Assembly: GCF_029889805.1 (NCBI RefSeq)
Contig: NZ_JARANT010000004.1
Span: 1-55,088, forward strand
From: Halorubrum sp. Boch-26
Lineage (GTDB): Archaea > Halobacteriota > Halobacteria > Halobacteriales > Haloferacaceae
Direction: 5' to 3'
DNA length: 55,088 nt
The position numbers and the translations under genes were made by a program. Positions 51,120-55,088 of this stretch are shown piece after piece (the first letter of the stretch is position 1; each line of letters starts with the position of its first letter). The notes under the pieces are model-generated. The model was not told the DNA's origin and did no database searches. It saw only the letters and a list, made by a program, of their open reading frames with translations.

Positions 51120-53006
51120 TTACAAACTGTCGCCGTCGGTGTCGGGGCCCTCCGCCGCGGACCCGACCGGCGTCGCCGCGTCCGGTAGGTGGGACAGCCC
51201 GAGTCGATCGAGCAGCCGCGCCGTCGGCCGACCCTCCCCGTCCCAGCCCCGGTGCTCGTAGTACCGGTCGAGCAGGGTCTCGAACGACGCGGGATCGAGC
51301 CCGTCGCCGCCCCGGTCGCCGGACGCTCCGCCGTCGCGCTCGCGGTCCGCTCCGCTCTCGGTGTTCCTCGTCAGCGCCTCAGGGAGGCGGTCGTCGGCCC
51401 GCGTGAACCCCTCGCGGAGGTTGAACAGCCGCGTGAGCGTCCAGGTGCGCTCGCCGAGCAGCCGGAGGTCGTCGGGGTCACGCTCGTCGCCGAGCGCCGC
51501 GAACCACTCGGCGGCGGCCGCCGGACCGAAGCTCTCGGCGAGGAAGTCGTCGCCGACGAGACACCACAGCGCGGCGCGGCGGTCCTGCTCGTCGGCGACG
51601 GCCGCGGCGCGCTCGGCCGGGCTCCACCCGGGCGCGGCCACCGCCTCGGTCTCGACCGGGCGAGCCCGCCGGTGACACCCGCCCCGGTCGCTCGTCGCGA
51701 ACGCGAGCGCCATCGTCTCGGCCCCGCGCGGGTCGTACGAGCCCAGCTCCATACCCTTCACCGTCGGGACGAGATCCGCGCCGCCGAACCGATCGGCCGC
51801 GGACTCGACGCCGTCCGCGAGCGCGTCGCCGAGGGGCGTCGAGCGCGAGGCGATCTCCTCGATCAGCGTCCGGGCCGCGGAGTCGTCGCCGAAGGCGAGT
51901 TTCCGGTCGATCCCGTGATCGGTGGGGTCGATCAGCCCGGCCTCGCTCGCGCGGACCGCCCACGCGACCGCGTTGCCCGCGGAGATCACGTCGATCCCGA
52001 GCCGGTCGCAGACGTCGCCGAGCGCCGCCACGGCGTCGAAGTCGTCGATCCCGAGCCCCGCGCCGAGCGCGATCGGGGTGCCCCCGCGGGGGACGGTCTC
52101 GTCCGGGTCGGAACCTCCACCCGAGCGGTCTCCGCCGCCCGCTCGAATCCGGAACCCGCCGGGGACAGCCTCGTCCGAGCGTTCGCGCCCCGCGGCGCGT
52201 TCGCTCGCGCGCTCGACGCCGAGGTTCTCGGCCCCCTCGAACCGGCGCGCCTGCCAGCCCCGGGTCGGGAGCACGCCCGTCTCGTCGGCGAAGGAGACCG
52301 TTTCGAGGGTGTCGCCCGCGGCGAGCCACCGCCCGGCGTCGCTGTCGGCGAACTCCCCCTCGTCGCGCTCGCGGAGCTCCCGGAGCGCCGGCGGCGTCTC
52401 GGGCGGCGGATCGCGGGCGACGACCGCCTTCAGGTTCTTCGACCCCATCACGGCGCCCGCGCCGCCGCGGCCGGCGTGGTGGTCGCCGCCGTCGGAGGCG
52501 ATCGTCGCGTAGCGCACGCCCGCCTCGCCGGCGGGGCCGACGCAGGCGACCGCGCTATCCGGGAACCGCGCGTCGGTCTCGGCGGCGTCGAGCCCGCGGA
52601 GGTCTCCGGCCGGCTCGATCGTCGCCTCCCCGCCGGCGAGCGAGAGCGCGACGGGAGCGTCGGCCGCGCCCTCGACCACCATGCCGAGGTGGTCGCCGAG
52701 CGAGCCCGCCAGCCGGCTCGCGAACGACCCGCCGCCGTACGAGTCGAGGAACGCCCCGGTGAGCGGCGACTTCGTGACGGCGGCGTAGCGCGGCTCGCCG
52801 GGGAGGTGCCCCGTCAGCGGGCCGACGAGGAACGCGAGCCGGTTCGCCGGCGCCTCCGGGTCGACGCCGGGCTCCATCTCGTAGCAGTAGCGCGCCCCGA
52901 GCCCCTTCCCCCCGACGTACCGCGCGAGCCACTCCTCGGGGACCGGCTCGCTACGCACGCGGCCGGCGGAGAGGTCGACGCGGAGGGCCCGGTCGGGGAC
53001 GGTCAT
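51120..53006 (-). CDS. Aldehyde ferredoxin oxidoreductase family protein lacking the CxxCxxxC motif
   Basis: 628 residues from ATG 53006. The N-terminal AOR domain is clear: VGGKGLGARYCYEMEPG, RLAFLVGPLTG, AVTKSPLTGAFLDSYGGGSFA and HAGRGGAGAVMGSKNLKAVV (pterin binding). After LPTRGWQARRFEGAENL, however, the family's CxxCxxxC segment is replaced by a Gly/Asp/Ser-rich stretch. Only five cysteines remain in the whole protein and none is arranged as a 4Fe-4S site, although the distal Cys region (ALWCLVGDDF) is kept. LGIDDFDAVAALGDVCDRLGIDVISAGN and GSYDPRGAETMALAFATSDRGGCH are normal. It probably still binds a W/Mo pterin, but electron transfer must differ. Substrate unknown. Confidence 0.85.
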   Translation of the reverse strand: MTVPDRALRVDLSAGRVRSEPVPEEWLARYVGGKGLGARYCYEMEPGVDPEAPANRLAFLVGPLTGHLPGEPRYAAVTKSPLTGAFLDSYGGGSFASRLAGSLGDHLGMVVEGAADAPVALSLAGGEATIEPAGDLRGLDAAETDARFPDSAVACVGPAGEAGVRYATIASDGGDHHAGRGGAGAVMGSKNLKAVVARDPPPETPPALRELRERDEGEFADSDAGRWLAAGDTLETVSFADETGVLPTRGWQARRFEGAENLGVERASERAAGRERSDEAVPGGFRIRAGGGDRSGGGSDPDETVPRGGTPIALGAGLGIDDFDAVAALGDVCDRLGIDVISAGNAVAWAVRASEAGLIDPTDHGIDRKLAFGDDSAARTLIEEIASRSTPLGDALADGVESAADRFGGADLVPTVKGMELGSYDPRGAETMALAFATSDRGGCHRRARPVETEAVAAPGWSPAERAAAVADEQDRRAALWCLVGDDFLAESFGPAAAAEWFAALGDERDPDDLRLLGERTWTLTRLFNLREGFTRADDRLPEALTRNTESGADRERDGGASGDRGGDGLDPASFETLLDRYYEHRGWDGEGRPTARLLDRLGLSHLPDAATPVGSAAEGPDTDGDSL

Positions 53007-53146: not shown

Positions 53147-53896
53147 ATGAGCATGAACGACGTCGTCGACGCGCTCGACGCGGCCGCGGGAACGACCTGT
53201 CTCGTCGGCGCCGGTGGAAAGAAGACCACACTGTACGCGCTCGCCGCCCGGCTCGACCGGGCCGTGCTCACGTCGACGGTCCGGATCCCGATCTTCGACC
53301 GCGAGGTCGCCGAAGTCCGGGCGACCGACGACCCGGTCGGCGAACTCGACGGGACCGCGGCGAACGGCGGCGAGGGAGACGCGTTTCCCCTCGGACTGGT
53401 CCCGGAGCGCGAGCGCGACGATCGGTATCGGGGGTACGACCCGGCCGTCGTCGACGATATCGCGGCCGCGCACGACGGTCCGGTGCTCGTGAAGGCGGAC
53501 GGCGCCCGAACGCGCCTTTTTAAGTCCCCGAACGAGCGCGAGCCGCAGATCCCGTCGGGCGCGGACCGCGTCGTACCGGTGGCGAGCGTCGGCGCGGTCG
53601 GCGAACCGCTGGCCGAGGAGACGGTTCACCGCCCCGAACGCGTGGCCGCGATCACCGACGCCGAACTCGGCGACGAGATCACCCCGGAACTGGTCGGGCG
53701 CGTGCTCGCCGACGAGCTGGGCGGCTTCAAAGACGTGCCGCCGGACGCGACGGCGATTCCACTTATAAACGCGGTCGACGACGCCGGCGACGAGGCGGTC
53801 GCACGGGAGGTCGCGCAGGTCGTGCACGAGCGCGCCGACGTCCCCCGAGTCGTGCTCGCGCGGATGATCGCCGGCGAGGTCGTCGACGTGGTGTGA
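53147..53896 (+). CDS. yqeC: YqeC-like protein (selenium/molybdenum hydroxylase accessory)
   Basis: 249 residues from ATG 53147. A P-loop, LVGAGGKKTTLYALA, is at the N-terminus. VLTSTVRIPIFD, VLVKADGARTRLFKSPNEREPQIP, VPVASVGAVGEPLAEETVHRPE and ATAIPLINAVDD match the putative accessory proteins of selenium-dependent molybdenum hydroxylases (YqeC). Their activity is unproven. Divergent from the AOR-type gene, which suggests a role in molybdo- or tungsto-enzyme maturation. No selD, yqeB or hydroxylase gene is in view. Confidence 0.83.
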   Translation: MSMNDVVDALDAAAGTTCLVGAGGKKTTLYALAARLDRAVLTSTVRIPIFDREVAEVRATDDPVGELDGTAANGGEGDAFPLGLVPERERDDRYRGYDPAVVDDIAAAHDGPVLVKADGARTRLFKSPNEREPQIPSGADRVVPVASVGAVGEPLAEETVHRPERVAAITDAELGDEITPELVGRVLADELGGFKDVPPDATAIPLINAVDDAGDEAVAREVAQVVHERADVPRVVLARMIAGEVVDVV

Positions 53897-53926: not shown

Positions 53927-54253
53927 ATGGAGCGAACCGTGACGGTGGTTCCGGAGGCGGGACTCCACGCGCGCCCGGCCTCGAAGCTGGTACAGACGGC
54001 GAACGGGTTCGACGCCGACGTGTCGATCGGTCGCGCGGACGACGGCGACGACGGGCTGGTCCGCGCCGACAGCATGCTCTCGGTGAGCGGACTGAACGTC
54101 GCTCACGGCGAGTCGGTCCGCGTCGTCGCCGAGGGGCCCGAGGAGGCCGCCGCGCTCGACGCGGTCTGCGACCTGTTGACGAGCGAGGTCGAGGGGACGG
54201 GGGACGAGAGCGACGGAGGCGGGACCGACGCCGACGAGGGTGAGTCGGAGTGA
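53927..54253 (+). CDS. ptsH: Phosphocarrier protein HPr
   Basis: 108 residues. The HPr fold is complete over residues 1-87. The phosphorylated His14 lies in GLHARPASKL and a Ser at position 49 in ADSMLSVSGL corresponds to the regulatory serine site of Gram-positive HPr. An acidic disordered tail of about 20 residues follows. It accepts phosphate from enzyme I and passes it to EIIA components or to dihydroxyacetone kinase subunits. Its stop overlaps the enzyme I start. Confidence 0.94.
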   Translation: MERTVTVVPEAGLHARPASKLVQTANGFDADVSIGRADDGDDGLVRADSMLSVSGLNVAHGESVRVVAEGPEEAAALDAVCDLLTSEVEGTGDESDGGGTDADEGESE

Positions 54254-55088
54254 CGACCCTCACCGGCGTCGGGAGCACGCCGCTGTCGGGCGTCGGCGCG
54301 GCGCGCTGGTACCGGCCCGAGGCGGACCTGACGCTCCCCGACCGACCGGACCCCGCCGCGGTCGACGCGGCCGCCGAACTGACGCGGTTCGAGAGCGCCC
54401 GCGACGAGGCGCGCGAGGCGATCCGACGCGCCCGCGACCGGACTGCGGAACGCGTCGGCGAGGACGAGGCGGCGGTGTTCGACGCGCACGAGGGGTTCCT
54501 CGACGACCCGGAGCTGGTCGGCGATATCGAGGACGCGATCGGCGACGGGACCCCCGCCGAACACGCCGTTCACGACCGGTTCGCGGCCGCGATCGAGCAG
54601 TTCGAAGCGCTCGACGGTCCCATGGCCGAGCGGGCCGACGACCTGCGCGACGTCCGCGACCGCCTGCTCCGTGCCCTCTTGAACGTCGACGCGCTCAGCG
54701 ACCTCGGCGGCCTCCCGGACGGTACCGTGGTGCTGGCCGAGCGGCTCACGCCGAGCGACACGGCGGAACTGGACCCGGACGCGGTCGCCGGGATCGCCAC
54801 CGTCGCGGGCGGACGGACCGCCCACGCGGCGATCATCGCGCGCTCCCTGTCGATTCCGGCGGTCGTCGGCGTCGGCGAGACGCTTCGCGAGGTCGCCGAC
54901 GGCACCGAACTGCTCGTCGACGGGGTCGATGGGCGAGTCGTCGTCGACCCCGACGCGTCGGCGCGCACGACCGCCGAGGGCGACGCGACGCCGGCCGTCA
55001 CCGAACGCGTCGCGACCCACGACGGCCGGTCGGTCGAGGTTGCCGCGAACGTCGGGAGCGCCGCGGGACTCTCTGGCGCCGCCGACCG
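54250..55088 (+). CDS. ptsI: PEP-protein phosphotransferase (enzyme I), N-terminal part
   Basis: The start is GTG 54250, overlapping the ptsH stop (GTGA), and the gene runs off the right edge; about 279 residues are visible of a family near 570. The N-terminal HPr-binding helical domain (about 33-145) is followed by the swivelling phosphohistidine domain with GGRTAHAAIIARSLSIPAVVG, His192 being the PEP-phosphorylated residue. The PEP-binding barrel lies outside the window. With HPr it forms the general PTS part; the sugar- or dihydroxyacetone-specific part must be elsewhere or downstream. Confidence 0.93.
   Translation, partial: MTTLTGVGSTPLSGVGAARWYRPEADLTLPDRPDPAAVDAAAELTRFESARDEAREAIRRARDRTAERVGEDEAAVFDAHEGFLDDPELVGDIEDAIGDGTPAEHAVHDRFAAAIEQFEALDGPMAERADDLRDVRDRLLRALLNVDALSDLGGLPDGTVVLAERLTPSDTAELDPDAVAGIATVAGGRTAHAAIIARSLSIPAVVGVGETLREVADGTELLVDGVDGRVVVDPDASARTTAEGDATPAVTERVATHDGRSVEVAANVGSAAGLSGAAD

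Follow-up and report, generated by a model that had tools for sequence, protein, structure and literature searches.

A haloarchaeal clade of AOR-family proteins without Fe4S4 ligands, and its association with YqeC and formate dehydrogenase

The AOR-like gene and its product

The window, which is the whole stretch of 55,088 nucleotides that was analysed, comes from a 2.76-Mb haloarchaeal draft genome whose closest named relatives are Halorubrum species (82–86% protein identity). Near one end it carries a gene for a cluster-less protein of the aldehyde ferredoxin oxidoreductase (AOR) family, here called AOR-like, and divergently from it a gene for a protein of the YqeC family (Table 1). The AOR-like frame begins with an ATG and is open over its full length, with no internal stops. 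Both domains of the product are matched far above the cut-offs, AFOR_N with 198 bits (E 2e-58) and AFOR_C with 293.5 bits (E 3e-87), and a domain search at E 0.001 returned the AFOR domains only, with no FdhD-NarQ domain (PF02634) and no DNA-binding or sensor domain. The protein thus has both domains of the AOR/WOR family (PF02730 and PF01314) to which Pyrococcus furiosus AOR (1AOR) belongs, and also the whole fold. The AF2 model, built on a 69-row alignment, has a pLDDT of 91.1 and a pTM of 0.92, and it superimposes on 1AOR with a Z-score of 47.8 and an rmsd of 2.2 over 579 residues at 32% identity. All of the nearest solved structures belong to AOR-family enzymes (Z 37.7–48.9). By descent and by fold AOR-like is a member of the AOR superfamily. 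The dN/dS values against five relatives are 0.21–0.28, which shows that the gene is under purifying selection and therefore functional. The same genome has two further AOR-family genes, and both of their proteins retain all four cluster cysteines.

Table 1. Positions of the two genes and of the residues discussed in the text, in coordinates of the window; Pfu, P. furiosus AOR.
Feature	Position	Strand	Support
AOR-like, cluster-less AOR-family protein, 628 aa	51120..53006	-	AFOR_N and AFOR_C; AF2 model; fold match to 1AOR
YqeC, divergent neighbour of AOR-like	53150..53896	+	TIGR03172, 156 bits; 76/76 co-occurrence; model pLDDT 94
Y90 for Asn93, other Mg-carbonyl position	52737..52739	-	81/81
H176-H177 for Arg182-Ala183	52476..52481	-	H 81/81, H/Q 81/81; HH also in Cys-bearing sister group
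Lost CxxCxxxC site, D278-E-A-V281-P-G-G-F285 (C288/C291/C295 to D/V/F)	52152..52175	-	81-orthologue alignment
Gly/Asp/Ser-rich low-complexity stretch, residues 290–303	52098..52139	-	Most orthologues without it; low pLDDT
R307-G308-G309 for Glu311-Tyr312-Glu313, catalytic Glu lost	52080..52088	-	R 80/81, G 81/81, A/G/S 81/81
Retained first pterin motif, D334-R-L-G-I-D339 (Pfu D338–D343)	51990..52007	-	338 D/N 81/81, 343 D 81/81
Retained C444-H445 (Pfu C447-His448)	51672..51677	-	81/81
Second pterin motif in its rebuilt form, distal Cys lost, W481-C-L-V-G-D486 (Pfu D489-x-x-G-L-C494)	51549..51566	-	W and D 80/80 aligned

Lost cluster ligands and a rebuilt pocket

Known AOR/WOR enzymes contain a bis-metallopterin, with a Mg that Asn93 and Ala183 bind through their backbone carbonyls and an Fe4S4 cluster alongside, and the second shell is made up of Glu313, His448, Tyr427 and Thr243, as summarised in a 2025 review (PMC12096430). 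When AOR-like is aligned to P. furiosus AOR, the cluster ligands C288, C291, C295 and C494 become D278 (codon at 52173–52175), V281 (52164–52166), F285 (52152–52154) and D486 (51549–51551). An earlier note on this DNA had claimed that the 4Fe-4S cysteine motif is replaced, and this is borne out well beyond the single protein, as all four ligand cysteines are absent in 81 of 81 aligned orthologues. The interval it gave, 52060–52260, includes the first three ligand positions, and the distal one lies outside it. In the orthologues position 288 is mostly D/E/G/N and 291 mostly V/I, 295 is F or Y in all 81, and 494 is D in all 80 that align there. Seven additional orthologues agree on the loss in a second alignment, where the loop is offset by a few columns. 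A sequencing error or frameshift, which the earlier note had kept in mind, or a decaying pseudogene, has virtually no chance of being the explanation. Nothing was found in support of it, and it is refuted by the orthologue alignment, since the absence of the cysteines, the invariant F/Y and D and the low dN/dS do not fit with chance or with an error in a frame that is open throughout.

The same note took a Gly/Asp/Ser-rich stretch to be what replaces the motif. The stretch is there, but it is a lineage-specific insertion found mostly in Halorubrum and a few others, with a short turn in most orthologues, and it is poorly modelled (block pLDDT 48 at about residues 291–300, below 50 at 293–298). 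The conserved replacement of CxxCxxxC is instead D-x-x-V-P-G-G-F. Judging from the alignment, a replacement cluster held by other cysteines is improbable: only C155, C333 and C444 are invariant (81/81), they form no CxxC pattern, and these positions are also cysteines in many cluster-bearing AORs. The statement that all known AORs have a four-cysteine Fe4S4 site needs a footnote, because WOR4 and WOR5/ASOR of P. furiosus also deviate from this set; WOR4 keeps an Fe3S4 cluster with one Cys changed to Gly, and WOR5 an Fe4S4 cluster on three Cys and one Asp (PMC12096430), whereas in AOR-like all four ligands are gone. We found no account of a cluster-less AOR clade or of a complete ligand loss in the literature searched, and as many subscription papers lay outside the search such an absence is unproven.

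The pocket around the former cluster is partly kept and partly new. Beside the first pterin motif and His448, AOR-like shares with the P. furiosus enzyme the GRGG loop, the Tyr427 and Thr243 positions and, in most orthologues, Arg76. Of the catalytic pair, His448 is retained and Glu313 has become A/G/S, and Glu311 and Tyr312 are gone with it. The DxxGLC sequence, which we take to be the second pterin motif in 1AOR, is W(S/C)LV(A/G)D in the orthologues and is followed by another D (DDF end). Both residues at the Mg positions have changed as well, which is not decisive for the Mg itself since it is bound through backbone carbonyls. The earlier view of the pterin motifs as intact thus holds for the first motif and not for the second. 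Going by the sequence, the protein may perhaps not bind a bis-pterin, as the second motif is lost. There is hardly any variation at the new pocket residues, which implies a rebuilt site and not decay. The combined changes of N93 to Y, R182-A183 to HH and E311-Y312-E313 to R-G-A/G/S, together with the second pterin motif, make the known aldehyde-oxidation chemistry unlikely. Furthermore, as two defining features of AOR enzymes are missing, the annotation "aldehyde ferredoxin oxidoreductase" is unsuitable.

In a tree of AORs (trait columns excluded, midpoint root, quick search) the cluster-less proteins are all found on one side of one branch with an SH-aLRT of 100. The loss, which the earlier note had thought might define a clade, clearly does so, and it has a single origin. 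The sister group is a haloarchaeal subfamily (L105–L110) that keeps all four cysteines, Glu311 and Glu313, and that has Tyr93, the His-His pair, an aromatic residue at 489 and mostly D495 in common with AOR-like, at 42–47% identity in genome searches. The neighbours examined for these sister genes are of transport and catabolic types, such as a polyamine-type ABC transporter, an agmatinase-like protein and an aldehyde dehydrogenase. An aldehyde-oxidising role for AOR-like like that of the sister group is unlikely with the catalytic Glu gone. Two further genomes, matched by E-value, have the cysteine-bearing sister only, and both are without YqeC. An AOR from another family of the phylum, which is placed outside both groups (L118:5756-7594, + strand), has Tyr93, Trp489 and the four cysteines and resembles an evolutionary intermediate. 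Read most economically, the pocket was remodelled first, with a single loss of the cluster and the Glu afterwards. In a Thorarchaeota AOR (L102) the first cluster Cys is an Asp, giving three Cys and one Asp, a ligand set like that described for WOR5.

Association with YqeC and formate dehydrogenase

Among 155 genomes of the order, YqeC is present in all 76 with AOR-like as compared to 21 of the 79 without (p=3.6e-25). Counted by genus, the only level at which kinship was corrected for, the figures are 27/27 and 6/25 (p=2e-9). The two genes are at most 8 kb apart in 53 of 77 cases, and in other genera yqeC is either divergent, immediately upstream of AOR-like or separated from it by one gene. 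The YqeC model matches the folds of FtsY/Ffh (Z up to 12.7), MeaB (about 10.9) and UreG (about 10.4), which predicts a SIMIBI P-loop NTPase; the match indicates the fold class only and not membership, since the Foldseek TM-scores are moderate (0.3–0.46). A search of the YqeC sequence against the PDB gave no useful match. MeaB serves in the delivery of cobalamin and UreG in that of nickel, and by analogy the fold of YqeC would fit one half of a cofactor-delivery pair. In C. difficile the deletion of yqeC gave no clear phenotype (PMC11448449).

YqeC (TIGR03172) and a MobA-like gene are shared with the maturation set of selenium-dependent molybdenum hydroxylases. Unlike in that set, SelD is mostly absent and there is no link to Mo-hydroxylases. 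SelD is above the cut-off in only 12 of the 155 genomes, typically next to a separate YqeC copy, and it is missing from 66 of the 76 AOR-like genomes, the window's own included, while MoCoBD_2 was found in 32/76 genomes with AOR-like and 38/79 without (p=0.52). Both links were therefore rejected. Some genomes of one genus, probably Haloarcula (G062, G112, G118, G147, G152, G176, G181, G194), have two YqeC copies, one by SelD and the other by AOR-like, which suggests that YqeC also acts outside the selenium trait.

Formate dehydrogenase (FDH) is found in 70 of the 76 genomes with AOR-like and in 39 of the 79 without (p=2e-9), and its association with YqeC is stronger still, 90/97 as compared to 19/58 (p=2e-15). 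The link between AOR-like and FDH is strong but not absolute, since 20 genomes have FDH and YqeC without AOR-like, and six have AOR-like without an FDH over the cut-off. Within Halorubrum, all 19 carriers tested have both YqeC and FDH. Of the six genomes without AOR-like, three have neither, one has no YqeC and an FDH of another clade only, and the remaining two, one of them 84% complete, have both. In a tree of 38 FDHs the sampled enzymes from YqeC-less genomes form one separate clade (SH-aLRT 99). Those linked to AOR-like fall into at least two other clades, with proteins of about 712 aa in one and with a fused NuoG-like N-terminus in another.

FdhD is the usual sulfurtransferase and chaperone for the FDH cofactor and binds Mo-bisPGD. 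FDH alpha is above the cut-off in 109 of the 155 genomes, yet FdhD was detected in none of them: PF02634 gave 0/155, and TIGR00129 gave nothing over the cut-off in 59 haloarchaeal genomes, although both models give matches in other archaea.

FDH alpha, counted as cluster representatives above the TIGR01591 cut-off, neighbours AOR-like in 29 of 65 loci and in 16 of 26 genus-level groups, and YqeC is near AOR-like in 34 of the 65; these counts from neighbour clustering are approximate since the genes were called by a simple codon-usage method. Other neighbours are MobA, a TorD-type chaperone and Fe-S and NrfD-like FDH subunits, in several arrangements, and Haloarcula loci add MoaA and a MOT1-type permease. 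The neighbouring FDH has the FDH Cys-His signature, where an F420-dependent FDH has X, presumably selenocysteine, and then His. In the genome of the window FDH is on a contig (C92) other than that of AOR-like, and at that locus (L130:1-12000) the alpha gene clusters with MoaC, formate-tetrahydrofolate ligase and GcvT, which suggests that this FDH serves C1 metabolism.

A possible role in cofactor supply

As AOR-like always occurs with YqeC and usually with FDH, it probably aids the supply of cofactor to FDH, and a context of YqeC, FDH, MobA and MoaA without FdhD points in the same direction. We tentatively favour a redox-silent protein of AOR fold that acts together with YqeC in supplying Mo/W cofactor to FDH. 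An AOR paralogue would have abandoned electron transfer and aldehyde oxidation and been recruited, together with YqeC, for the supply or maturation of the FDH Mo/W-pterin. The fold, in which the first pterin motif is unaltered and the second has been remodelled, may hold the Mo/W-pterin, or a precursor of it, inside a sheltered pocket, which we propose to be redox-silent because V/F/D have taken the place of the cluster ligands. It is conceivable that the YqeC NTPase gates the loading or release of the cofactor, as UreG or MeaB might suggest, and that the cofactor then passes, with MobA, to apo-FDH. That the cofactor is bound and handed over, that NTP hydrolysis has a part in this and that FDH is the client is what we infer. 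Such a job would resemble that of FdhD, although AOR-like has no FdhD domain match. A more far-reaching version, which we regard as rather unlikely, is that AOR-like and YqeC form a new kind of FDH maturase that replaces FdhD, an oxidoreductase turned carrier, possibly with sulfuration through the invariant Cys by His448.

The main rival, somewhat unlikely in our judgement, is an active Mo/W enzyme with a new and probably non-redox or two-electron chemistry on formate or C1 compounds, for which YqeC would be the cofactor-loading NTPase. The rebuilt pocket (Y90, H176-H177, W481, D486-D487 and C444-H445-R446-R447) is nearly invariant in an active-site-like manner, with the positions of Thr243, Tyr427 and His448 kept. 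Furthermore, FDH, formate-tetrahydrofolate ligase and GcvT are found together in the window's genome, and the co-occurrence with YqeC is stricter than that with FDH. On the other hand, such an enzyme would have to work without Glu311, Tyr312 and Glu313 and with no cluster left to reoxidise the metal, and the neighbours are mostly genes for cofactor synthesis and FDH, among which a common substrate gene was not found. The absence of FDH over the cut-off in six AOR-like genomes would be easier to explain by a store or sensor that buffers or reports the level of Mo/W cofactor, and not by a dedicated FDH maturase. A redox-silent AOR fold and the linkage to MoaA, MobA and a MOT1-type permease in Haloarcula would suit this as well, but the protein matched no DNA-binding or sensor domain and its association is with FDH and not with Mo-hydroxylases, which makes this alternative quite improbable.

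The earlier note had left two consequences side by side, a non-redox role, which is supported here, and direct electron transfer from the pterin to another acceptor, which is less likely than a non-catalytic role, given a rebuilt second pterin motif and the loss of Glu313, Glu311 and Tyr312. If electron transfer were retained, a partner, for example FDH or its Fe-S subunits, would accept electrons straight from the cluster-less pterin, and the kept fold, several kept pocket residues and the Fe-S subunit genes nearby in some genera are compatible with it. We consider it very unlikely, given the loss of the catalytic Glu, the replacement of the cluster cysteines and the surrounding pterin residues, and the diverse architecture of the linked FDHs, which is ill-suited to a fixed partner.

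A supply role for AOR-like and YqeC would bear on two stated gaps, the maturation of FDH in organisms without fdhD (PMC10609526) and the role of YqeC (PMC11448449). A large clade that is without the cluster and the catalytic Glu, and in which the fold is under selection, would also be an example of a metalloenzyme that has become something else.

Some other genes recur at these loci. In the window yqeC adjoins the HPr gene and the beginning of the PtsI gene (PTS; 53927–55086), and these are kept together in several Halorubrum genomes. A DUF7124 protein (L062:7767-8552, + strand; a cluster of 18 loci) is located directly 3' of AOR-like in Haloarcula, Natronococcus, Halolamina and others. At about ten loci the FDH alpha of about 712 aa is found near an unannotated protein of 190–240 aa, with no Pfam match for one example (L082:10021-10593, - strand) and no NCBIfam match for another (L130:5715-6440, + strand), and this protein is a candidate FDH accessory protein.
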